Virus record (IMG/VR): IMGVR_UViG_3300028133_000007
Location: 1-52,645 of that record
Direction: 5' to 3' (one strand)
From: a virus
Length of the DNA stretch: 52,645 nt
In this document: in pieces, positions 12,897 through 52,636 of the stretch
Layout of the letters: each line of letters opens with the position of its first letter
Numbering within the stretch: the stretch's first letter is position 1
Notes under the pieces: model-generated
What the model was told of the DNA's origin: nothing
The model's database searches: none
What the model saw: the letters and a program-made list of their open reading frames with translations, nothing else
Program-made: the position numbers and the translations under genes

Positions 12897-12940
12897 TAAA
12901 AAAACGGGTTAAATTGCATTTAATTACATTTTAACCCGTT
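12897..12940 (-). terminator. intrinsic terminator of clpP
   Basis: Arms AACGGGTTAAA (12903-12913) and its complement (12930-12940) form an 11-bp stem with a 16-base loop. Read on the minus strand, the stem is followed by seven T residues. It begins 15 nt after the clpP stop and insulates clpP from the next promoter. Confidence 0.85.
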
Positions 12941-17000: not shown

Positions 17001-18391
17001 TTAGATTTAAACAGACAGCATACGGTGAAATAAATTTCTCAACATCTGAAACTATAACACAATCTAATATGGTTATCAAAGATAACAACGGACAAATTAT
17101 ATCATCGAATCATTGTGAATTAGTAGCGGGTGCTGGCAATTCATATAAAATTATATTCTGGACAATAGATCCAGGCACTTCAAGTTTATTAGATGTTTTT
17201 GTAGGCGATGGTAGTGCCACTACTACATTAGCAGACTTTGGAGTCAAAGTTGTGGCCGATGTACAAGTAGCTAAGAAAGTTGAAGTACAAACATCATCTT
17301 ACGTTACTACAAGTGCATATGTTTATGATGAATATAGAATAAGTTCAGGATACATTGATCCTACAAGAGTTAAATTACTGACATTAAGTGCAGACGGAAA
17401 TCCATATGGATTATTGAATGTATTTAATTTAAAAGATGACCAAGGAAACGTGACTTCATCTAAATTTATTATAGAGTCATACAAATTCAGTCATGCAGGC
17501 TATGAAAATATAGATTTACATAGAGCATCAAAATCTGCAACAGCGGCACCAAATGCCGGAACAGTTAGTAACCCAACACCAGAAGGCAATTTACCAAGTT
17601 ATAAAATATGGTTTAACACAGATGATAGCGAATGGTACTTATATCAAGCAGGTACTTGGTCAAAATCGTTTGTGTACTATGAACAATCTCCTACAGTTAT
17701 TTGGTATGGCGACACACAATACTCAGTAGTCGATGGCAAAAGTTTTGTTGAAGACAAATTTATGAGTTATAGATGGGATCATTATGCAGACGTAGATAAA
17801 AGAATTGATCCTAGTACAAGTAATATCGTTGACATGTATGTTCTTACAAGTGACTATGTAAGACAAGTAAATCAATGGATAGCAGGTGGTTTCAAAACAG
17901 CAGTACCTACATCTCCAAATAATTACGAATTGTCAACATTGATGAGTGGTATTGAACCCAAATCGTCTATTGCAGACCATATTTCATATATACCAGTCAA
18001 GTTCAAATACTTGTTCGGCAACTTCGCATCTCCTGAAAATCAGGCTACATTCAAAGTTGTTAAGAAATCAGGAACAGCATATACTGACAGTGAGGTCAAG
18101 ACCGCAGTGTCAACTAAAGTAAATGAATACTTCGAATTAGATAACTGGGAGTTTGGTGACACATTCTACTTCTCAGAATTAGCATCATACTTACATAATC
18201 AACTTGGAGATTATATTGCAAGTGTTGTTACAACACCTAAATATTCTACTAGCGGTTTTACAGACTTGCTAAGTATTACTAGTGAACCAAATGAAATTTT
18301 CTTAAGTGTAACAACATCAGAAAATGTTAAAATCATTTCAGCAATTTCATCATCAGAACTTCAAGGCGAGGATGTAGTAAGCAATGGCTAA
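14045..18391 (+). CDS. 6: baseplate wedge protein gp6 (baseplate J family), enlarged
   Basis: 1448 aa, more than twice T4 gp6 (660 aa). The N-terminus is diagnostic: YDFDTIRESLLAYINKTYPE, DFIASSEFIAILDLVAYLGHSLAFRSDMNTRENFMDTAERRESILRMARTLGY, the J-type segment in which wedge proteins dimerise to form the iris of the baseplate. The C-terminal third also looks gp6-like, with repeated beta-rich segments and SVKVNEYFELDNWEFGDTFYFSELASYLHNQLGDYI-type spacing (seen near residues 1350-1400). The middle, about 600-1150, is extra beta-rich material. It overlaps the next gene by 8 nt. A two-residue K/E-rich opening and weak SD are unremarkable. Confidence 0.9.
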   Translation: MSQERIDNLFASESWTSVYTAFSNVSLKSYDFDTIRESLLAYINKTYPEKFNDFIASSEFIAILDLVAYLGHSLAFRSDMNTRENFMDTAERRESILRMARTLGYTKTRPINASGMMKITSVTTTEDVADNEGNSLAGNVVNWNDSNDVDWYEKFITVLNSSFNKNTKIQDPSASLNIGNVENYLYEVNENKNSKSIAYAFTSNVAGANRRFEAVRASIENNKIIEGAPLNDKNFTIINRNDNLGPASDRTGFFVLAKAGQLQFENFRYGIKASNRVETLTDANVSNTDVWLHKLDSNLNYKSDVTKVDNDTRETAIYNSLRTGNGDLVNISTGINNTIELRYPDGIFGNAAFGDYRAWFRTCTNENFSVNSGDISNVTISIPYTGADDKSYRLTITMASTKDFGENFAGETFTSVRRIAQKSYYAQDRMVNAQDYNVYPLTLGNNIVRKLKSVNTSFAGNSRYFEMDDVTGHHSNLSITGTDGSVFVEDESLNMSLYFNRTSGNSDDFIRNELSRAIGHPSLFNKFYHLYRDAASINIDVNELYTKSPLNNLQIEGTAPWNIEQGDYVKILGESSTEYYARVKKVVSTDPGQIILDRVITEKGTLKSVIRGYRSKFTEAEITAIKTQKIDDLNVTSFTLYYDVAQGQTTKWEWKIWDGVVDLSDKIKVEYEYNPGIRTHETMYVAKINGKKVVFESYDQVRFYYGNNEVVVDNETNLAERDKLLINYYDGAKTVTSSDSNISDEITVGYTPVSEFASNGSGGGTFKAKYRNTGADVTYDYVENNSTISTVDYKHQLVSPAGITYDLPTSAITSPATPNNIIGSTPDFELELEVDDLSQYVSLLTNVEDDSVVTTGSETHISPNGMPIDGEQNAEAQANAVASHSTISSTNLKNIHGFKGEPSLSYFGSAPTTNNFLWIDTSSLPTGETRETATFGMTGVQKDFITEYLSGTSSYKFTYPYKNWNVQPDGTGGDGITQSDTAENDVRFKQTAYGEINFSTSETITQSNMVIKDNNGQIISSNHCELVAGAGNSYKIIFWTIDPGTSSLLDVFVGDGSATTTLADFGVKVVADVQVAKKVEVQTSSYVTTSAYVYDEYRISSGYIDPTRVKLLTLSADGNPYGLLNVFNLKDDQGNVTSSKFIIESYKFSHAGYENIDLHRASKSATAAPNAGTVSNPTPEGNLPSYKIWFNTDDSEWYLYQAGTWSKSFVYYEQSPTVIWYGDTQYSVVDGKSFVEDKFMSYRWDHYADVDKRIDPSTSNIVDMYVLTSDYVRQVNQWIAGGFKTAVPTSPNNYELSTLMSGIEPKSSIADHISYIPVKFKYLFGNFASPENQATFKVVKKSGTAYTDSEVKTAVSTKVNEYFELDNWEFGDTFYFSELASYLHNQLGDYIASVVTTPKYSTSGFTDLLSITSEPNEIFLSVTTSENVKIISAISSSELQGEDVVSNG

Positions 18392-33637: not shown

Positions 33638-35206
33638 ATGTCAAATTATGATGATGATGCACAGATAACGAAAGAAAAATTAAATTCTCTTTCACCGTCT
33701 ATGTGTATGGCTAAGTGGTTGCAAGTTAGTTTGCATCTGCCCCAAGGTCGCACACACAGTTGCTATCATCCACCTACACACCCTATTCCGTTAGAAGAAC
33801 TTAAGAAAGATGTTAATGCATTACACAACACTACATTCAAATTAGAAGAAAGAAAGCAAATGAAATGCGGCACCCGTCCTGAAGGTTGTCAGTATTGCTG
33901 GAATGTAGAAGATGCTCCTGACGCCCCACAAGGCGGAAGACTTAGTGACAGACATTATCGTTCAAGTGAGTGGTGGGTTAAAGATGCATGGGACGAAGTC
34001 GTAAACAATGACTTTGACCACAACATTACTCCTAGATATGTTGAGGTGAACTTTAATCAGGCTTGTAATTTCAAGTGTAGTTATTGTTCGCCTCATCTAA
34101 GTACAGCATGGGAAGATGATATCAAAGAACATGGCGGCTTTCGTTTTTCAAATGGAACTGGTCATAATGATATCGATTACCTGCGTAAAACAGGTCTCAT
34201 GCCATTAGAAGTAGCACGTAAGGACAATCCTTATATTGAAGCATTTTGGGAATGGTTTCCACAGATATACAGAGATTTGAAAGTATTTCGTATGACAGGC
34301 GGAGAGCCTCTTATGGATAATAATACATTCAAAGTATTTGACTATGTTAATGAAAACCCTAATCCTTTTCTTGACCTAAGTATTACATCGAATATGTGTC
34401 CACCAAGTCCTAAGTTGATGGATAAGTTTATTGAAAAAATACAAGCATTAGAAAAAATTCGTGTATGGGAAGACCCAGAACGTTTTAATCCTGATAGTGG
34501 CAATCACTGGTATGTTGCACCAGCATGTAAACACTTTAGTTTATATGTGAGCGTAGATGGTGTAGGACCTCAAGCAGAATATATGCGTGACGGATTAGAC
34601 TTTGATACACTATATCAAAATTGTCGTAGAGTCTTAAGTGAAACAGATGGAACAGAAATTTCATTCATCAATACATTTCAATTATTGAGCATCCCAAATT
34701 TACGTGGGTTTTTGCAAATGATATTAGATTTACGTGAAGAATTTGGATATGAGAACCAAGAAGATAAAATTATTCAACCACCAGACCATGATGGGTTTAA
34801 GCACCCAGAGTTTGTACGTAAAAAACGCCAGCGTGTATGGTTTGACATTCCCTATCTGCGTTATCCTGATTGGATGACTATTCAATTAGCAGACCAAGAA
34901 ATGCTGGATGTAATTCAATCTAACATTGACTTTATGAAAGAAAATGTACTACCGAATGATTTATATGGTCGCAAGTATACAGGCTTTAAGAACTATGAAG
35001 TATTAAAACTTGAACGAGATTTAGCATGGGCCAAAGAAGGACTAAATATGAGTGATGATGAATTAAGTAATAACTTAATTCGTTTTTATGAATACTTTAC
35101 AGAGTATGACAGACGTAGAGGATTAAACTTTTTAGAAACCTTTCCAGAAATGACAGCGTTTTGGAATGAAGCAAAAGAAGAAGCAGAGGAAAAATATGGG
35201 TCGTAA
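33638..35206 (+). CDS. radical SAM enzyme with N-terminal twitch-like domain, copy A1
   Basis: 522 aa. The radical SAM [4Fe-4S] site is C143-NFK-C147-SY-C150, and MTGGEPLM supplies the GGEP loop that binds SAM. Before it lies a cysteine-bearing segment, C23, C42, C84 and C87 (SMCMAKW, THSCYHPP, GCQYCWNVED), the layout of an N-terminal twitch domain for an auxiliary cluster. It should make a 5'-deoxyadenosyl radical; the substrate is unknown. A run from MRDGLDFDTLYQNCRRVLSE is shared with the next gene (YIRDGLDYDLWKNNIHRVLKE), showing a tandem duplication. It has no strong SD. Confidence 0.88.
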   Translation: MSNYDDDAQITKEKLNSLSPSMCMAKWLQVSLHLPQGRTHSCYHPPTHPIPLEELKKDVNALHNTTFKLEERKQMKCGTRPEGCQYCWNVEDAPDAPQGGRLSDRHYRSSEWWVKDAWDEVVNNDFDHNITPRYVEVNFNQACNFKCSYCSPHLSTAWEDDIKEHGGFRFSNGTGHNDIDYLRKTGLMPLEVARKDNPYIEAFWEWFPQIYRDLKVFRMTGGEPLMDNNTFKVFDYVNENPNPFLDLSITSNMCPPSPKLMDKFIEKIQALEKIRVWEDPERFNPDSGNHWYVAPACKHFSLYVSVDGVGPQAEYMRDGLDFDTLYQNCRRVLSETDGTEISFINTFQLLSIPNLRGFLQMILDLREEFGYENQEDKIIQPPDHDGFKHPEFVRKKRQRVWFDIPYLRYPDWMTIQLADQEMLDVIQSNIDFMKENVLPNDLYGRKYTGFKNYEVLKLERDLAWAKEGLNMSDDELSNNLIRFYEYFTEYDRRRGLNFLETFPEMTAFWNEAKEEAEEKYGS

Positions 35207-36743
35207 ACATTGGGAGGGAGAAACCCTTCATCAATACAAAGAGCGTATGATTGATAGCAAGAGCGAAAGCTACTGTGCTTCTAAATGGTATAACGCTACT
35301 ATCTGGTTAGGACATGGGCAGACTGCAAGTTGTCATCACCCACCAGGGCATTGGATCCCACTTGAAGAAATTAAAGATAATCCTTCAGCAATTCATAATA
35401 CAAAGCATAAGAAACTTATGCGTAAACATATGCAAGAAGGCAAAAGACCTGCTGAATGTGAATACTGTTGGAAAGTTGAAGACATGGGCAAGGATCATAT
35501 ATCTGACCGTGTATTCAAAACTGAAATCTTTAAAGACGAAGATATTGACAAGAGTATGGAAATGCCATGGGATGATAACGTAAACTTGCGTACACTTGAA
35601 ATCTCATTTGATAGAGCGTGTAATCTAAAATGTTCATATTGTAATCCTGCTTTCAGTACCGCATGGGTTAAAGATATCAATACATATGGTGGATATCAAA
35701 ATATACAATCTGATGGCAGAGGACACTTTGTTGATACTGCACCTTGGGCGGCTCCCAAGACAAAGAAAGAAGAAGACAACCCATACATACAAGCATTTCA
35801 TAAATGGTGGGAGAGTGACTTAGCAGATTGTTTAGAAGAAATTCGTATCACTGGTGGTGAACCCATCATGCATAGAGGTACATGGAAATTGTTTGATTGG
35901 TTTGAACAGAATCCAGATAGAGGACGTAATATGCGTTTTGCTATCAACTCTAACTTGTCTCCGGAGAAACCAAAAGTATTAGACAGATTAATTGAAAAGT
36001 CTTGGCATGTCCCCAACTTTGAGATATACACTTCAATGGAAGCAACCAAAGACCAAGCAGAATATATACGTGATGGATTAGATTATGACTTATGGAAGAA
36101 TAATATACATCGTGTATTAAAAGAATCAAACGTAGCAAAACTACATATGATGATGACTATTAATTCACTGTGTCTTGTTACTATCACAAATTTTATGGAT
36201 GAAATGTTAGACCTACGTGAAGAATATGGACAACGTGCTCCTACTATGACGCTAAACATTTTGCGTTTCCCTTCTTTTCAAAGTGCGGCAATACTTCCTG
36301 AGGATGTAAAGACATTTTATAAAGACAAACTAGAAGCATGGTTCAACACAGAAAGACCACAAGAAAAATTATCAGAAGGTGAAAAAGCAAGTATACAAAG
36401 ATTGATTGACTATCTTGATATTGTTAAAACACCACATAAGAATACAGCAGAAACTCCGAAGCTATATAATGATTTTAAAGCATTCTTTTCTCAGTTTGAT
36501 GTGCGAAGAGGACATAATTTCAGGGAAACATTCAAAGGACCTATTGCAGATTGGTACGAAACTTTAGAAGCAGAAGCACCAAGTAGAGAACAGATTTTGA
36601 ATAAAGAATTAGTATTTAAAAATAGCGACAGAGCAGGTGACCCAGCCACTACAAAAGACTATGAAGGAGGTGACGATGCTCACGAAAAAGTTGGTGGTTG
36701 GGACACTGAAAATGATGCACTAGGAGGAGTCAAAGTTGAATGA
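35196..36743 (+). CDS. radical SAM enzyme with N-terminal twitch-like domain, copy A2
   Basis: 515 aa, a tandem paralogue of the preceding gene along its length: C27, C46, C88 and C91 at the twitch positions, C142-NLK-C146-SY-C149 for the SAM cluster and IRITGGEPIM for GGEP. The start is set at ATG 35196 (MGRKHWEGETL), 11 nt inside the previous gene and 7 nt after AGAGGA; an extension to 35166 is possible but lies deeper in the previous gene and lacks a better SD. A C-terminal tail after 480 is charged and Gly/Asp-rich. Substrate unknown. It overlaps the sulfotransferase-like gene by 4 nt. Confidence 0.88.
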   Translation: MGRKHWEGETLHQYKERMIDSKSESYCASKWYNATIWLGHGQTASCHHPPGHWIPLEEIKDNPSAIHNTKHKKLMRKHMQEGKRPAECEYCWKVEDMGKDHISDRVFKTEIFKDEDIDKSMEMPWDDNVNLRTLEISFDRACNLKCSYCNPAFSTAWVKDINTYGGYQNIQSDGRGHFVDTAPWAAPKTKKEEDNPYIQAFHKWWESDLADCLEEIRITGGEPIMHRGTWKLFDWFEQNPDRGRNMRFAINSNLSPEKPKVLDRLIEKSWHVPNFEIYTSMEATKDQAEYIRDGLDYDLWKNNIHRVLKESNVAKLHMMMTINSLCLVTITNFMDEMLDLREEYGQRAPTMTLNILRFPSFQSAAILPEDVKTFYKDKLEAWFNTERPQEKLSEGEKASIQRLIDYLDIVKTPHKNTAETPKLYNDFKAFFSQFDVRRGHNFRETFKGPIADWYETLEAEAPSREQILNKELVFKNSDRAGDPATTKDYEGGDDAHEKVGGWDTENDALGGVKVE

Positions 36744-37483
36744 AACGGCATATGATAATGTTCAATGCAAGAAGTGGAAGTACGGTAGTTGGCAATCATG
36801 TAGCGGCTAACTTATGCACTCCTGCATTTGACTTTAATGCACACGGATTGCCGTCAACTGAAATTCATGATTGTGAATATGACTGGTATTTTGATATGAT
36901 TTCAGAAATCAATAACAAATATCCAGGAATAGAATGGTGTATGAAATGGAACATTATGTGCGGACATATCGATTCTATGACCAAGTTAAACGAAAAAGTA
37001 AATCCAGAAGTTATATGGTATTTTAATTTTGATAAAGTACATCATTTCTTTAAAAGCCTAGGGGTTACTGATTTACATTTCACATTCAGACATGATATAA
37101 TAGATACAATATGTAGCTTCCTTATTGCAGAAGAAACAGGCAACTGGGTTATAGGTAAACGTAAAAAAGCAAAATACGATAAAATAACTTTCACACCCGA
37201 ACAAATATCGGCATGTATTGATTCATATGATTTAGCATACCAAGTGTATTCTCGGTCTGTAATAGAAATGATGGACAAGTACGATTGTCATTTTTATCCA
37301 TATGAAGATTTAGAAAATATCATCGACCTTGATAATGACCCACATGGGTTGATTAAGCAACTTAGTAAAGAAGATAAAAAACATATCATCACTAATTACG
37401 AAGAAGTAGAGAGAAGTATCAAGGAATCGAGAATATGGAAGTGTCAGTATGATAAACAGACTGGAGTGTATTCCTTTGATTAG
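36740..37483 (+). CDS. sulfotransferase-like protein
   Basis: 247 aa. An N-terminal FNARSGSTVVGNH with R11-S-G-S-T15 matches the PAPS 5'-phosphosulfate-binding loop, and LHFTFRHDIIDTICSFLIAEETGNW with R117 and S126 matches the 3'-phosphate-binding region. Sulfotransferases move sulfate from PAPS to a sugar or other hydroxyl or amine. This would need PAPS from the host. It sits between radical SAM genes with 4-nt overlap upstream and a short overlap downstream, so it probably modifies the same glycan or peptide. A general P-loop kinase is the main alternative, but no GK[TS] is present. Confidence 0.72.
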   Translation: MKRHMIMFNARSGSTVVGNHVAANLCTPAFDFNAHGLPSTEIHDCEYDWYFDMISEINNKYPGIEWCMKWNIMCGHIDSMTKLNEKVNPEVIWYFNFDKVHHFFKSLGVTDLHFTFRHDIIDTICSFLIAEETGNWVIGKRKKAKYDKITFTPEQISACIDSYDLAYQVYSRSVIEMMDKYDCHFYPYEDLENIIDLDNDPHGLIKQLSKEDKKHIITNYEEVERSIKESRIWKCQYDKQTGVYSFD

Positions 37484-38651
37484 TTACAATACAATATATG
37501 ACCTTCAACTAGAAGTAAGCAGTTTGTGTAACGCTAGATGTATTATGTGTAGTCGTAGAGAACAAGGTGGCGAAAAGAACCCAACATTTGTAGAAACATA
37601 TTTAACACTGCAAAATATAAAAGATTGGTTTCCAATTGATTTACTTAAGCAAGTAAAGATAATCGGAATGTGCGGAAACTTTGGCGATGCTATGACTAAT
37701 CCAGAACTTATAGATATAGTCAAGTATATCATATCAGTTAATCCAGATATCAAATTTACTATGAACACAAATGGCAGTGGCAGAGACGATAACTTCTGGC
37801 GTGAACTAGGTGAACTATTTAAAGGTAGGGGACAAGTTACTTTTAGTGTCGATGGATTAGAAGATACAAATTGGATATATAGACGAGGAACTCACTGGGA
37901 TAAAATTATATCTTCAATGAAGGCATATGTTTCAACTGGTGCAGATTCGTCTTGGGATTTTTTAGTGTTCAAACATAATCAACATCAAATAGAAGAAGCA
38001 AGAGAACTATCAAAAAAGATAGGAATAACTAGCTTTTATCAAAAGAAAGCATTTGGATTTTATGATGGCGATGATAATGCAATGAATGTATATCGTAGTG
38101 ATGGCAAATTCGAATATACTATTATGGCACCAGATGAAGATTTACAAGGAACAAACAGAGACCCAAAAAGAGATACACAGAATTTAGGTAAGAATTGGTT
38201 ATCAGGTAAGAAAAAAACTTCTACAGGATTTGTAGAAGATATAAAAAAACAATTAGAAAATGTAGAGAGTACTACAAAGACATTACATTGGAGTTTTAAA
38301 AATTATACCAAGCCGAATGAATTAAGTCTCACTGATAGAAAACTTAGCGAATTAAAAATAAATTGCCAAGCATCTGAATCAAACAGTGTGTTCGTAGACC
38401 ACAACGGTATAGTTGTTCCATGCTGTTGGATAGGTGCATTCTATCCCGGAGACGGCGGCGATATCTCACAACCAATAAAAGAATTTTTAGAAAAAGACGG
38501 CATAGATAAAATATCATTAAAACATAATTCACTTGAGAATATTATAAATGGTGAAATGTTTTCAACCAGTTGGATTGAAAGTTTCAATGACTATGATATA
38601 AGAAATAAAAGATTGAAAGCCTGTTCAATATTTTGCGGAGTAAATGAATGA
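37476..38651 (+). CDS. radical SAM/SPASM-like enzyme, copy B1
   Basis: 391 aa. The SAM cluster is C18-NAR-C22-IM-C25 (SSLCNARCIMCSRREQGG), then MCGNFGDAMTNPEL instead of GGEP. The C-terminal part has C...PCC...AC-x3-C (INCQASESN, VVPCCWIG, ACSIFC), a SPASM-like auxiliary cluster. The ATG frame begins at 37449, but the TTG at 37476 is preferred: GGAG lies 7 nt upstream and the N-terminus then lines up with the two downstream copies, so that Cys18 is at residue 18 in all three. SPASM enzymes usually modify peptides, but this family could act on sugars. It is nearly the same as copy B3 over long stretches. Confidence 0.85.
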   Translation: MISYNTIYDLQLEVSSLCNARCIMCSRREQGGEKNPTFVETYLTLQNIKDWFPIDLLKQVKIIGMCGNFGDAMTNPELIDIVKYIISVNPDIKFTMNTNGSGRDDNFWRELGELFKGRGQVTFSVDGLEDTNWIYRRGTHWDKIISSMKAYVSTGADSSWDFLVFKHNQHQIEEARELSKKIGITSFYQKKAFGFYDGDDNAMNVYRSDGKFEYTIMAPDEDLQGTNRDPKRDTQNLGKNWLSGKKKTSTGFVEDIKKQLENVESTTKTLHWSFKNYTKPNELSLTDRKLSELKINCQASESNSVFVDHNGIVVPCCWIGAFYPGDGGDISQPIKEFLEKDGIDKISLKHNSLENIINGEMFSTSWIESFNDYDIRNKRLKACSIFCGVNE

Positions 38652-40042
38652 AAACTATACCAATTTGGAAAAGTGACGGAAGTTGTGCAGAAGAAAGTAA
38701 GAACAAAACTTTCTGCATGGCTCCATGGTCGCATACATACATATCTCCACAAGGTGAACGTAGACTATGCTGTGCGTCACGTGAAGAACATTCATTTCAA
38801 AAGCAATACATCGATGCATAAAATGATGAACGCTATGGTAAAGTAACTGATTCTAAAACTGATGCTGATGATTTTAATCCAGTATCACTAGAAGAACACT
38901 GGAACTCTCCTTATATGAAAGACATTAGAAAGAAACTAATGGCAGGAGAACGTATTCCACAATGTGATGTTTGCAATGATGACATTCTAAGTTTATCATC
39001 TTATCGTAAATGGTTTACTGGTGTACTATTCAGAGACAAGATACAAGAAGCATTTGATAAGACAGACGATGACGGGCATACAACAATGCCTGCTATATCA
39101 TTTGACTATCGTTACTCTAACTTGTGTAACTTTAAATGTCGCATGTGTGGTGAACAGTTATCAAGTTCGTGGGAAGCAGAAAAGAAAAAACATGACATGT
39201 GGTCGATTGAGCATCAACCATTTATGCAACCTACAGTAAAACAAAAGATGGTTAAGTTTCAGCGTACAGTCGTTGAACCAGAATTTAAGAAAGCAATTAG
39301 TGATGGCATCGTAGAAGAAATATATTGGGTAGGCGGCGAGCCACTTATGTATGATATACATTGGTGGGCATTAAAAGAAATGGTCGCTAATGGTTCTGCA
39401 AAGAATTGCCACTTAAGATATAACTCTAATTTATCTCGTACAACATTTAAAGGTATGGAGTTGTTTGATTATCTACCTCAGTTTAAAGACTGGTTAATGT
39501 GTGCAAGTATCGATGGTACAGGTGATATCGTAGAGTTCATTCGTAAAGGTATTGTATGGGACGAGTGGTTAGCTAACTTTAAGAAAGGACTAGCGGCACC
39601 AGGTGGTAAGGACAAGATGTTATTTGACTTGACTATTACTGGTCCGGGTATGTTTAGTATCAAAGATTTATTTGATTTGAGTTTGGAATTAGATGTAAGA
39701 ATAGAAACAAAGATTATGTTTGCCTTTCATGCTGATATCGTGTTTAGTCCTTTTGCATGGCCTAAGCATATACTACATAGACATTTAGATGAGTTACTTG
39801 CGTACATAGAACCAAAAGCAACACACAAGCAATTAACATTAGTAAATACATTAAAGGGCATGAAGGATAGAGAAACATTTGAAGAACAATGGCCTGATAC
39901 CCATGAAGAACAATTTTTTAATGGCAGAAATTATCAAGAACAACTTGATAGAATTAGACAAGAACAACACAGACTAGAAGATATATACAAAGCAGATCCC
40001 GAACTATATGATTGGTGGACCAGACAAAAGAAAGAAAAATGA
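38648..40042 (+). pseudogene. radical SAM enzyme with N-terminal twitch-like domain, interrupted by in-frame TAA
   Basis: 465 codons. Codon 58 is TAA (38819-38821), in frame with all that follows. Before it are C23, C41 and C42 (FCMAPW, LCCASREE), the first ligands of a twitch-like cluster; after it are CDVCND, then the SAM site C160-NFK-C164-RM-C167 and VGGEPLM. The frame is otherwise intact, with no frameshift, and ATG 38648 has a good GGAG and an ATGA overlap with the previous gene. Reinitiation at ATG 38915 would give a 375-aa protein with the SAM core but without the first cysteines. It could be a recent nonsense mutation, a readthrough stop, or a sequence error. Confidence 0.82.
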
Positions 40043-40043
40043 C

Positions 40044-41015
40044 ATGACAAAACTTAGAATTACATTTTCTAAAAACTATGCAGAGTTGCCGTTAAGAGGT
40101 GAACACAATGCACGTATTCCGGATCCGGATATTGATGATACGTTTGTGCTTGAATGGGATTTGATGTCTAACTGTTCGACCACATCTAAGTTTATATCGT
40201 TGATGCAAGAGACATACAGAATTGAAGAAAATGGTGTAAAGATTAATTATAATTTTTACCCATCAGTGTCTCCTGAACAGTTTATGCTTATGAAGAAGCG
40301 TATGAATTTTGTAGTTAAAAAGATTGCAGAGATAGAAGGGATACCAGCGGCGGACCCTTCATTAAAATTAAAAACAGATTCTACAGACATAGAAATAGAC
40401 AAACTAAATGCATTACATTTATATTTTGAAGATGTGTCTAATGATCCTGTAATAACTAAAAGGGAAGATTACACCGCCGGCGATATATACAAATACCTAG
40501 AAGAAATTAACCAATTAGTTCACTCAATGGAAGATTGGAAATACCAAGATTGGGATGAATTTTTTGGAACATGCAGACTAGCTCCTAGACGCGGCGCTAT
40601 GGCTTCTGAATTGACAGTACCACTAGATGCAGAAGACTATAAGAAGTTTACATGCGAAGCGTGGTATGGGGATTTAATGCTAGACTATTTTAGAGTTGGA
40701 AAAGATTTAGATGCATGTAGGTCAACAAATGATACTGCATTAGTAAAAAATAAAGGACTGGCTCAGCAAAATACAGTACACACCTGTTTCTCATTTCAGT
40801 TTCATAATTTTTTAGATGGAACACAAACAGGGTGGTTAGGTATTGATGACTGGATTAAAAATAATAACCTAGAGAAGTACTATGATTTTACTGCACCCGA
40901 ATTTACTAATGGAAGAGTATGTTTAGGTAAATTAAATATGCAAGGTAAAACAAGAGAAGAAATTACATCTGAAATGATGAAAGCTACAAGTATATTAAAT
41001 GTGGAATTAGCATGA
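40044..41015 (+). CDS. unknown protein between radical SAM genes
   Basis: 323 aa from the ATG at 40044 (MTKLRITFSKNYAELPL), 1 nt after the previous stop; a longer frame opens at 40008 but lies in the previous gene. It is helical and acidic with no recognised motif. Landmarks are TFVLEWDLMSN, LNALHLYFEDVS, and EINQLVHSMEDWKYQDWDEFF. It might be a partner or substrate of the radical SAM enzymes; inference only. It has two cysteines at mid-length and no SAM motif. Confidence 0.65.
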   Translation: MTKLRITFSKNYAELPLRGEHNARIPDPDIDDTFVLEWDLMSNCSTTSKFISLMQETYRIEENGVKINYNFYPSVSPEQFMLMKKRMNFVVKKIAEIEGIPAADPSLKLKTDSTDIEIDKLNALHLYFEDVSNDPVITKREDYTAGDIYKYLEEINQLVHSMEDWKYQDWDEFFGTCRLAPRRGAMASELTVPLDAEDYKKFTCEAWYGDLMLDYFRVGKDLDACRSTNDTALVKNKGLAQQNTVHTCFSFQFHNFLDGTQTGWLGIDDWIKNNNLEKYYDFTAPEFTNGRVCLGKLNMQGKTREEITSEMMKATSILNVELA

Positions 41016-41043
41016 CAAATATTAAACAATTAGGATAGATATT

Positions 41044-42231
41044 ATGAGTGAAACTTTTTGCCCATTATTATTTCAACATCTTGCTACGCATCCGCATGGA
41101 GGCGTGACACATTGTTGTGTTGCAGACCATCGTAATTCATTGAGTAGTTCACGTGATGGTGATAGATTTTATAATCTTAATCGTGACACTGTATTCGATA
41201 CTATGAATAGCGAAAGCTATAGGAAAGCAAGATTAGAAGTACTAGATGGCAAAAAACCTAAAGCATGTATGCGTTGTTATTCAGAAGAAGCTAAAGGTAT
41301 GGCTTCTAAAAGATTAGAAGAAATAAAGAACTATCCTGAGTATACTGTGGGAGTTGCTAGGGACGCCACTGAGAGCGACGGCTCAATGAAAGACGTTCAG
41401 CTTGAGTTCGTTGAGTTAAGATTAGGTAATGTTTGCAATGTTGCGTGTCGTACTTGTAATCCTGCTTCTAGTAGCAAATGGCGAAATGATTATGATAAAT
41501 TACAAAAGAAAACGACATTTACTCTTACTACATATGATACAATGGAAGGATTCAGATGGCCTGAACGTGAAGGATTTTGGGATGACTTGTTACAACATTG
41601 TGATAACGTAAAGACATTCTACATCAATGGTGGTGAACCAACACTTATTAAAGAACATTTTAGATTTTTAGAAAGACTAGTAGAGTTAGGCAAGACTGAC
41701 ATTAAACTGTGGTATAACATAAACATGACAAACATGAATGATAAAGTCATAGACTTGTGGAAAAAGTTTGACCATGTAAAAGTAAGTTGCAGTATAGATG
41801 ATTTGGGTGATAGAAATCATTATATAAGATACCCTACAAAATGGAATGATGTTGAAAAGAACTTCTTAAGATTAAAGAAAGAAGGCTTTGAGATTGATGT
41901 AACACAGACTGTATCATGGATGAACTATAGCACTCTAGGTGATTTTTATAACTTCTTCCATAGAGAACATGGGGTATGGGTTCATCATAATTATGTATAT
42001 GATCCTGATATATTATCTCCAGCAGTATTGCCCAAAGCAATGCGTGATGCGATACATAATAAGTTTTCTAATGTATTTGATGATTGGAAAATGCAAGAAT
42101 TTAAGAAAATGTTTGGAGGACCAGACAACCCAGCCAAATGGGAAAAAGCAAAAGAGTATACTAGAAATCTTGATGAGATTAGAGAACAGAATATACTAGA
42201 CTTCTTACCGGAGTTTGAAGGACATTTTTAA
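41044..42231 (+). CDS. radical SAM enzyme with N-terminal twitch-like domain, copy A4
   Basis: 395 aa and complete. Twitch-like cysteines C6, C24, C25, C75 and C78 (FCPLLF, THCCVAD, CMRC), then C131-NVA-C135-RT-C138 and YINGGEPTL. It has the same architecture as the interrupted gene at 38648 (CC pair included), so it shows what that gene should look like. AGGA is 9 nt upstream. The remainder has a beta-alpha barrel pattern, with VKVSCSIDDLGDRNHYIRYPTKW as the usual region after GGEP. Substrate unknown. Confidence 0.9.
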   Translation: MSETFCPLLFQHLATHPHGGVTHCCVADHRNSLSSSRDGDRFYNLNRDTVFDTMNSESYRKARLEVLDGKKPKACMRCYSEEAKGMASKRLEEIKNYPEYTVGVARDATESDGSMKDVQLEFVELRLGNVCNVACRTCNPASSSKWRNDYDKLQKKTTFTLTTYDTMEGFRWPEREGFWDDLLQHCDNVKTFYINGGEPTLIKEHFRFLERLVELGKTDIKLWYNINMTNMNDKVIDLWKKFDHVKVSCSIDDLGDRNHYIRYPTKWNDVEKNFLRLKKEGFEIDVTQTVSWMNYSTLGDFYNFFHREHGVWVHHNYVYDPDILSPAVLPKAMRDAIHNKFSNVFDDWKMQEFKKMFGGPDNPAKWEKAKEYTRNLDEIREQNILDFLPEFEGHF

Positions 42232-43427
42232 TGTATAGATATGATTTAATAAAAAATATACATTTAGAAGTAAGCAGTCTGTGTAATGCAGAATGTTCTA
42301 TATGCAATCGGCGTGTGAACGGTGGACCAAAGAACCCAACAATGATTGAAAGATTTATTAGTTTAAAAGAATACAAAGAGTGGTTTGATGCTGACCTAAT
42401 AAAACAGTTAGAGTCGATAACTTTGTGTGGCAACTACGGCGATCCAATGACCAATCCAGAGTTAATTCCAATAATGAGATATACAAAAGAATTAAATCCG
42501 GATATTACTTTTCATATGAATACAAACGCCAGCGGCAGAGATAAACAGTTTTGGACAGACTTAGCAGATGTTATAGGAAAATCAGGAAATGTTGTTTTCA
42601 GTGTTGACGGATTAGAAGATACAAACCATATATACAGAAAAGGTACAAACTGGAAAAAAATAATGAATGCTATGGAATGGTTTACTGCGGAGAACAAATC
42701 ACATGCAGTATGGGAATTCTTAGTATTCAAACACAATCAACACCAGATACAAGAAGCAAGATTACTTTCTGAGAGTTTGGGCTTTACAAGTTTTCATGCC
42801 AAAAAAGCTATGGGATTTTCTGACAAACATGGTTTAGAAATGAAATCTCTTAAACATGATGGCACACTTGACTATTATATGCAGGCACCAGACGATGAAT
42901 GGAGAAATGAAAAAGTAAAGAAAAAACAAATTGTTAGAAAACACGGTGCATCTCCGGCAGTAATTACTAAAAAAACATTATCATTTATGTTTGACCATAC
43001 TCGTACTCCTGTTATCGATGAAGACCCAAAAGAACTAGAAGGATATGATAATTGTAAAATCAACTGTACAGCAATACGTTGGTCTGGCAAAGACCTAAGA
43101 AGTATATTCGTTGCGTCAACTGGATTAGTATTCCCTTGTTGTTTTACAGCAAGTAAATATTATGGAGTAGGGGTATTTGAAACGTTGCAACTGAGAAATT
43201 TTATAAAAGAATATGGTGAAGAAACAATAGACCTATCAAAAGGCAATACAGTAAAAAGCATTACAGATAGTGAACTATTTCAAATTGGATACAATAAAAG
43301 TTGGCTTAAGTCTACAACCGAATTAGGAAAGCTATTGACATGTAGTAAATTTTGTGGATCAAATGTAAACACTGAAATTCTTAGCACGAAAAAAAGTGTA
43401 CAGAGAAGCGGAGAATACAATGTATAA
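42231..43427 (+). CDS. radical SAM/SPASM-like enzyme, copy B2
   Basis: 398 aa. C18-NAE-C22-SI-C25, CGNYGDPMTNPEL, VFSVDGLEDTNHIYRKGTNW, WEFLVFKHNQHQIQEA and the C-terminal C...FPCC...TC-x3-C (KINCTAIR, VFPCCFTAS, LTCSKFC). It shares these blocks with B1 (37476) and B3 (43420). The gene begins at the stop of the previous one (TAATG), with AAGGA 8 nt before the ATG. Confidence 0.88.
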   Translation: MYRYDLIKNIHLEVSSLCNAECSICNRRVNGGPKNPTMIERFISLKEYKEWFDADLIKQLESITLCGNYGDPMTNPELIPIMRYTKELNPDITFHMNTNASGRDKQFWTDLADVIGKSGNVVFSVDGLEDTNHIYRKGTNWKKIMNAMEWFTAENKSHAVWEFLVFKHNQHQIQEARLLSESLGFTSFHAKKAMGFSDKHGLEMKSLKHDGTLDYYMQAPDDEWRNEKVKKKQIVRKHGASPAVITKKTLSFMFDHTRTPVIDEDPKELEGYDNCKINCTAIRWSGKDLRSIFVASTGLVFPCCFTASKYYGVGVFETLQLRNFIKEYGEETIDLSKGNTVKSITDSELFQIGYNKSWLKSTTELGKLLTCSKFCGSNVNTEILSTKKSVQRSGEYNV

Positions 43428-44649
43428 GCATGATGAAATACTTCATTTAGATTTTGAAAGTAGTAGCCTGTGCAATGCTCTCTGTCCTGTATGCAACCGC
43501 AGAGAACAGGGTGGGAAAAAGAACCCAAGATACAAAGAGACTTATATTTCATTAGAACAATTTAAGAAGTATTTTAGTGTAAAATTCTTAACACAGTTAT
43601 ATGGCATGTCTTTGTGTGGTAACTACGGTGACGCTATGACTAATCCAGAACTAATTGATATTCTAAAGTATACAAAATCTATAAATCCTAATATTAGAAT
43701 TACAATGAATTCAAATGCTAGTGGTCGTAACGCAACCTTCTGGTACGAATTAGGACAGATAATCGGAACTAATGGACACATGACATTTAGTGTTGATGGA
43801 CTTGAGGATACAAATTGGATATATCGTAGAGGAACTCATTGGAATAAAATTATGACTGCTATGGAAAACTATATCGCTGGTGGTGGCCATGCTAGATGGG
43901 AATTCTTAGTATTCAAACATAATCAGCATCAAATAGAAGAGGCAAAGATATTAGCAAAAAAAATAGGCATACAAGATTTCTTTTCAAAGAAAGCATTGGG
44001 ATTTGTTGACAGTGTGGTCGAAGGAAATGCACAATCATCTTTAGCAGTATTTAATGAAAGCGGAACAAAGGACTATGAATTGCATCCTCCATCTGATGGT
44101 AACTCTAATGAAATCATTAATAAATATATTAAACAATCATCATTTAAACGAATCGACGGCGAAGACACAGACAGTCCAGAAAAGATTTTACAAACAATTC
44201 GATTTGCTAAAACAAACCCATCGGGTGAGTATACACACAAATATGAATTAGATGAAAACAGACCACTAACTGAACACGAAAAGAAGTTAGGAAATACAAG
44301 AATAGATTGTATGGTTATCAAGCCTAAAAGTATTTTCGTGTCTAGTGAAGGATTAGTTTTCCCATGTTGTATGACTGCTAGTAAACTATATGCATTCCCA
44401 GATGAGGAAACTGTGCAGTTACAAAAATTTATAGATGACTTTGGTAAGGAAAGAATAAGTTTAGAACATACTAAACTAGAAGACATAATTAATGGTCCAA
44501 TGTTTCAAACGCACTGGCCTGATAATTGGAAAGATAATAATATCAATAATAAAAGATTGAGAACGTGTTCAATCTTTTGTGGTAAAGATACTAATCAAGA
44601 ATTCAATGCAACCATGAAAAGTATTAAGAAGAAAGAAAGCTATGCATAG
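43420..44649 (+). CDS. radical SAM/SPASM-like enzyme, copy B3
   Basis: 409 aa from the ATG at 43420; the frame also opens at a GTG 24 nt earlier, but ATG 43420 follows GGAG at 7 nt and aligns with the other copies. C18-NAL-C22-PV-C25, CGNYGDAMTNPEL, FSVDGLEDTNWIYRRGTHWNKI, WEFLVFKHNQHQIEEAK and the C-terminal FPCC and RTCSIFC. The DNA of the DGLEDTNWIYRRGTHW block differs from B1 mainly at third positions, which points to tandem duplication followed by purifying selection. It overlaps B2 by 8 nt. Confidence 0.88.
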   Translation: MYKHDEILHLDFESSSLCNALCPVCNRREQGGKKNPRYKETYISLEQFKKYFSVKFLTQLYGMSLCGNYGDAMTNPELIDILKYTKSINPNIRITMNSNASGRNATFWYELGQIIGTNGHMTFSVDGLEDTNWIYRRGTHWNKIMTAMENYIAGGGHARWEFLVFKHNQHQIEEAKILAKKIGIQDFFSKKALGFVDSVVEGNAQSSLAVFNESGTKDYELHPPSDGNSNEIINKYIKQSSFKRIDGEDTDSPEKILQTIRFAKTNPSGEYTHKYELDENRPLTEHEKKLGNTRIDCMVIKPKSIFVSSEGLVFPCCMTASKLYAFPDEETVQLQKFIDDFGKERISLEHTKLEDIINGPMFQTHWPDNWKDNNINNKRLRTCSIFCGKDTNQEFNATMKSIKKKESYA

Positions 44650-51461: not shown

Positions 51462-52636
51462 TTGTCTTTCTCCACTACGTTAACTTCTGGCATTGCGAAT
51501 AGCATTCTGCCACCTTTTTCAATCCATTCTTTTTCTTTTTCTACAAACATATCTTTAAATCCAAAGTTAGGAACAAAGAATAAGTCTGCATCTTTCTTTG
51601 CATCTTCTTCACTGACAATAGGTATTTCTGTACCAACAGTATATCTTCCTATCTTGTCAGGATGTATTTCAGCCGCACCTTCAAACAGTCCACCAAGTTT
51701 CCATAACTGTAACATTGTATTGCCTTTTGTACTTGCTCCATATACATAGTTCTTCTTTCCAGCTTTCAGAGAATCTTTTAATACTGTTCGTAGTAATAAA
51801 CCATTCTGTTCTACATTTGCAAAAAAGTTTTCTAACCCTGAAATATCTTCCAAATAAACAATGCTACCTTCATTTAGTTTTCTAGCCCATATCTGATAAC
51901 TACCGCCTTGTATATCGTTCTCTACTACTTTGAATATTTCTAGTCCATTTTGTTCGTATAACTTTACAAGACTTTTATAACTATAATATTCTAAATGTTC
52001 ATGGCAGACATTACCCAAGTCTTTCTTCTGTAGCATAGGCGCAAGTGTCATTAGTTGAGCAACAAAAATGCCGTCAGGATGTAGACTTTGATTTACACTA
52101 TAGATAAATTTATTAGGGTCATCTAAGTCATAGAACATACCTATTGCAGTAATGAACTTAGCCTTTCTCCCCTCCATTAGTTTGTAATGCCACATATCAT
52201 TAATAACTGCATCACACTCTTTTACTAATTTTTTAATTAAGTTTGGTGCTGGCTCACACCCAATTCTATATCTATCCGTTTCTACTCCACCAAGCAATGT
52301 ACCATCGTTAGCACCGATATCTAAAACAATATCACCCGGGTCTGTATATTTGTTGGCAAACTCTGCAATCTCTAATAGATTGTCTTTTAGTTTTTTATTC
52401 AATCCACTTTCATACCAATAGTGTTCTCCATATAATATCTTTGGATTCACGGTATGACGTAGTTGTACTAAATCACATTCTTCACACTGGTCTAAAACCA
52501 TTGGTGCAGTACCTCTTGTAAACTTAGGGTCTTTAGGAAAGTCATTAATATGTATGTCACCAAAGTCTGCGACAAACTTTACTGGACTACCACATACTCT
52601 GCAATCCTTTCTTTCGTTTAATATTTTTTTAGCCAT
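51458..52636 (-). CDS. sugar C-methyltransferase (class I SAM, zinc-type N-terminus)
   Basis: 392 aa. The N-terminus has C12-RV-C15 and C51-EE-C54, a putative zinc site as in the NovU/TylC3-type C-methyltransferases. LDIGANDGTLL (105-115) is SAM motif I, and CHEHLEYYS follows the core. The C-terminal domain (VYGASTKGNTMLQLW, PNFGFKDMF) is the typical tail of this family. These enzymes methylate C3 or C5 of a 4-keto sugar nucleotide. ATG at 52636 is only 9 nt from the window edge, so its promoter is not seen. It probably makes a branched deoxy sugar with the epimerase downstream. Confidence 0.88.
   Translation of the reverse strand: MAKKILNERKDCRVCGSPVKFVADFGDIHINDFPKDPKFTRGTAPMVLDQCEECDLVQLRHTVNPKILYGEHYWYESGLNKKLKDNLLEIAEFANKYTDPGDIVLDIGANDGTLLGGVETDRYRIGCEPAPNLIKKLVKECDAVINDMWHYKLMEGRKAKFITAIGMFYDLDDPNKFIYSVNQSLHPDGIFVAQLMTLAPMLQKKDLGNVCHEHLEYYSYKSLVKLYEQNGLEIFKVVENDIQGGSYQIWARKLNEGSIVYLEDISGLENFFANVEQNGLLLRTVLKDSLKAGKKNYVYGASTKGNTMLQLWKLGGLFEGAAEIHPDKIGRYTVGTEIPIVSEEDAKKDADLFFVPNFGFKDMFVEKEKEWIEKGGRMLFAMPEVNVVEKDK

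Follow-up and report, generated by a model that had tools for sequence, protein, structure and literature searches.

An in-frame TAA found in a single viral contig interrupts a conserved N-terminal twitch radical SAM gene

We report that a radical SAM gene on an assembled marine phage contig, a 52.6-kb virus record (IMGVR_UViG_3300028133_000007; the whole stretch analysed, 52,645 nucleotides, is referred to as the window) is interrupted by an in-frame TAA at codon 58, which is a sense codon in every relative that could be aligned. The stop is very probably a private one-base event, whether a nonsense allele of recent origin or an error in the consensus, and neither programmed nor lineage-wide. 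The best explanation is that a nonsense substitution arose recently in a single phage lineage and has not been fixed, a reading that we favour with little more than even confidence. Two other relatives carry different breaks close to the same place, and this cluster stands out as an unexplained lead.

The interrupted gene and its family

The gene occupies positions 38648 to 40042 of the plus strand, from an ATG at 38648 to a TGA at 40040-40042, and comprises 464 codons plus the terminator. Its first 57 codons (38648-38818, plus strand) include C23, C41 and C42, the TAA at 38819-38821 (plus strand) takes the place of codon 58, and the 406 codons that follow in the same frame (38822-40039, plus strand) encode a CxxC (C106/C109), a CxxxCxxC (C160/C164/C167) and a GGEP motif (229-232). 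An earlier note on this DNA had placed the TAA at codon 58 of the 38648 frame, with some 400 further codons holding the SAM motifs and with the stop between the first ligand cysteines and the CxxC, and the sequence bears this out in each respect. Two sister contigs have an intact copy whose protein downstream of the stop is 100% identical, so the open frame belongs to a real gene and did not arise by chance.

The intact protein of a sister (L001) matches NF033640 (N_Twi_rSAM, twitch domain-containing radical SAM protein) with 331.4 bits against a curated cut-off of 170 bits, and its residues 19-455 align to positions 1-396 of the model, i.e. nearly the whole model; the window's own frame scores 331.2 bits with one TAA inside. 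The order that marks the family, an N-terminal cysteine-rich twitch part and then a CxxxCxxC radical SAM core, is present, while the Radical_SAM profile PF04055 matches the part past the stop with an E-value of 2e-6, slightly below the family cut-off. In 67 full-length relatives no variation occurs at C23, C41, C42, C106, C109, C160, C164, C167, C285 or GGEP. The window copy, with all conserved cysteines in place, differs from the family by its stop at codon 58. Conservation and the family name suggest that C23/C41/C42 and C106/C109 bind one cluster.

An AlphaFold2 model computed from the alignment of the 67 relatives was confident (mean pLDDT 89.7). Its top fold matches in the PDB were the SPASM/twitch enzymes SkfB (6efn), SuiB (5v1s) and anSME (4k37), with E-values of 2.6e-4 to 7.8e-4 obtained via the radical SAM core; the overall TM-scores were low (0.25-0.34 on the query), and in contrast to these enzymes the extra cysteine domain of the window gene is N-terminal. 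Taken together, the family match, the invariant cysteines and the fold model show that the anatomy given in the earlier note was right. The PDB gave no sequence match, bacterial and archaeal genomes were scanned without any relative of the query turning up, and our literature search gave no paper on phage N-terminal twitch radical SAM proteins.

The stop falls just ahead of a poorly conserved linker (codons 61-80). The first in-frame ATG past it is codon 90 (38915-38917, plus strand), 93 bases beyond the TAA and with no Shine-Dalgarno-like sequence upstream; an ATGATG right behind the TAA is in a different frame, which soon terminates. Translation from 38648 would yield a peptide of 57 residues that has three ligand cysteines but lacks the catalytic core, and a restart at codon 90 would omit C23, C41 and C42. 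Little or no enzyme would be expected from the window allele because codon 90 is without an evident ribosome-binding site, and we infer that the allele has lost its function.

The gene belongs to a radical SAM array (33638-44649, plus strand) in which 33638, 35166, 38648 and 41044 score above the NF033640 cut-off, and 37449, 42231 and 43396 are weaker relatives that lack the N-terminal part. Matches to the twitch radical SAM family number 14 in the sister contig G002 (the contig of locus L002) and 15 in G005 (the contig of L005), in more than one cluster each. Such arrays are known: the marine T4-like phage genome TARA_ERS488813_N000010 (Nishimura et al. 2017, PMC5332604) carries 12 radical SAM genes, and in gene content it resembles the present phages in having many radical SAM genes per genome together with a ClpP gene; the parts of that paper covered here report no nonsense allele. 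Two ORFs inside the array (36740-37483 and 40008-41015) have no family match and are present in few relatives, and the former evolves faster than its neighbours (dN/dS 0.15-0.24). For the ORF at 35166 the true start is probably further downstream than annotated (window 35166-35200), and the in-frame stops that several relatives have at its codons 8-10 were rejected as breaks, being start-site extensions. An insertion of ~700 bases in some relatives was likewise dismissed; it represents tandem paralogues.

The nonsense change is confined to one contig

Two near-identical contigs were available for comparison, G002 (IMGVR_UViG_3300024420_000237; 35 mismatches in 51.5 kb, 99.92% identical to the window) and G001 (IMGVR_UViG_3300021185_001142; 99.78% identical over 38.6 kb). 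Both have Ser at codon 58 and no other difference from the window in the 38648 gene. The Ser codon differs from TAA by a single C-to-A transversion at 38820, in agreement with the earlier claim that one base change would restore a sense codon. The outgroups have the same base as the sisters, which places the change on the branch leading to the window alone. The origin on a terminal branch, the single change and the untouched downstream frame are what a recent private nonsense allele predicts.

We inspected the homologues at this codon, as the earlier note had proposed. Codon 58 is a sense codon in 67 of 67 aligned sequences, mostly Ser or Thr, and is always one of these two in the 63 distinct sequences that are >60% identical and cover the codon. 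No other viral contig scanned has a stop at codon 58 in the conserved context, and the exact local sequence recurs in that scan only in the two sisters, both times with Ser.

Relative to G002 the window shows, at the codon level, 26 synonymous and 7 missense differences plus this stop (35185 lies where two frames overlap and enters twice). Length differences are limited to two intergenic bases (12919-12920) and a shift of one base at 51464-51467 beside the divergent right end; outside that end there are no coding frameshifts. The clean comparison with the closest sister indicates that poor assembly is not a general problem of the window. Among random substitutions in these genes, 3-5% would create a stop and ~70% a missense change; a single young stop in this set is thus not unlikely, and the preponderance of synonymous changes implies that selection has acted on most of the differences. 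To the window branch we could assign six changes (24245, 25725, 26594, 31405, 35185 and 38820), among them synonymous, missense and stop changes, a number too small to distinguish a recent allele from an error. Several of those other than 38820 are transitions; 35185, the only other window-derived change in the 11 kb compared, is also C-to-A.

Two further stretches differ from the sisters in their own way. Five differences fall within the 153 bases of 17681-17833, and at 5/5 the window agrees with the outgroup G003, which suggests a converted patch in the ancestor of the sisters. At 51473-51489, between epimerase-like and methyltransferase-like genes, identity to both sisters falls from >99% to ~77-79%, and this is likely a recombination or gene-exchange junction.

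The dN/dS of the 38648 gene against its nearest relatives is 0.04-0.09, similar to that of its neighbours 33638, 35166 and 41044, and it is accordingly not a decaying redundant copy. We found no relaxed selection, no further lesions and no close stand-in paralogue; the paralogues within the window are only 25-33% identical to it. The array noted earlier is thus real, but the redundancy ascribed to it is not borne out, and a pseudogene in a redundant array was rejected in view of the strong purifying selection in relatives, the distant paralogues and the absence of a second lesion relative to the sisters.

Further breaks in the same gene

A survey of 205,553 aligned codons at 81 loci gave two genuine interior stops in conserved genes, codon 58 of the window and one at locus L004. 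The remaining rows were upstream extensions of the query ORFs; specifically, the stops in L036, L041, L042, L044, L073 and L375 were rejected as breaks on this ground, L073 after a full reading and the others from their place just upstream of a 38648-type start. The stop at L004 (4986-4988; IMGVR_UViG_3300017714_002497) is another TAA, in frame at codon 54 (window numbering) of this gene; locus L005, which differs from L004 at 11 positions in 11.2 kb, has Tyr there and an intact gene. Locus L067 (4820-6143; IMGVR_UViG_3300008267_001650) has this gene divided in two by a linker deletion, out of frame and between codons 63 and 80, that adjoins short AAGTAT-like repeats; an ATGATG there overlaps the end of the first piece and shares its frame with the radical SAM core.

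Besides the copies of the window, L004 and L067, none of 177 distinct orthologue sequences is broken, and about 65 orthologue sequences added later brought no new break. At the survey rate, the probability of two further breaks in such a span is ~5e-4, a figure to be read with the span having been chosen post hoc and each case being one contig. Apart from this gene, an apparent frameshift was seen once, at about position 3600 of L038, in an 825-aa gene beside the array (compared with the relative L041).

Discussion

The earlier note had left three readings of the stop, a recent inactivation, programmed readthrough or an error. Inactivation and error survive. Readthrough or another form of recoding would account for a frame that stays open for 406 codons, but we regard it as highly improbable: there is no conserved stop at codon 58 among the relatives, ARAGORN predicted tRNA genes neither in the window nor anywhere in the 116-kb sister G002, the 90 bases 3' of the TAA fold no better than shuffled sequences (z -0.56), and no Rfam family reached its cut-off in the region. 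TAA is moreover the commonest terminator in the window (19 of 37 ORFs) and is accordingly not reassigned; TGA and TAG are used as well, and reassignment of any of the three was rejected since all end ORFs there.

What favours a recent nonsense allele is that the gene is otherwise unchanged between the window and two near-identical contigs with Ser, that the stop occurs in none of the aligned relatives or other viral contigs scanned, and that it is derived in the window. Nothing else is broken past the stop, as would be expected if it were young, and the lack of coding frameshifts relative to the closest sister and the expected share of stops among random substitutions fit equally well. Against it, the case comes from one contig, a gene under such constraint should not long tolerate a null allele, and a one-off event leaves the nearby breaks in two other relatives unaccounted for. 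The poor tolerance of a null allele leaves room for a consensus error of the contig, through base damage, a miscall or low coverage at this position, with the gene intact in the phage, which we consider a serious though less probable explanation. It agrees with the single assembled record, with both sisters being intact, and with the type of change. Oxidative library damage also yields C-to-A transversions, and the change at 35185 is of the same type. The contig is, however, clean otherwise, with differences from the closest sister that are mainly synonymous, and several other window-derived changes are transitions. On balance we think it somewhat more probable that the TAA exists in the molecules.

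The clustering of the breaks would find an explanation if truncation were tolerated or favoured, with the gene broken before the linker and the core made by a restart at codon 90, as a core-only or two-piece enzyme. Three independent breaks (codons 54, 58 and 63-80) compare with one elsewhere in the survey (L038), the low probability given above points the same way albeit for a span picked afterwards, the ATGATG of L067 is suitably placed, and the array members 37449, 42231 and 43396 do without the N-terminal part. We nevertheless think this unlikely, given that C23, C41 and C42 are invariant in the 67 relatives, that codon 90 of the window is distant from the stop and has no Shine-Dalgarno sequence while the nearer ATGATG is in the wrong frame, that every case comes from a single contig with no broken form common to two lineages, and that the added orthologues held no new break. 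The wider proposal, that 38648-type genes have been broken repeatedly just before or in the linker (codons 54-80, in three lineages independently) because in some hosts an enzyme consisting of the core alone or of two pieces works or is of advantage, appears even less probable, and the cluster is best kept as an oddity.

With a recent nonsense substitution as the preferred reading, the stop is above all a caution: as a one-contig event, it should be annotated neither as recoding nor as loss of the gene across a lineage. The part worth a read-level check is only the clustering of three breaks in one short stretch of the gene.
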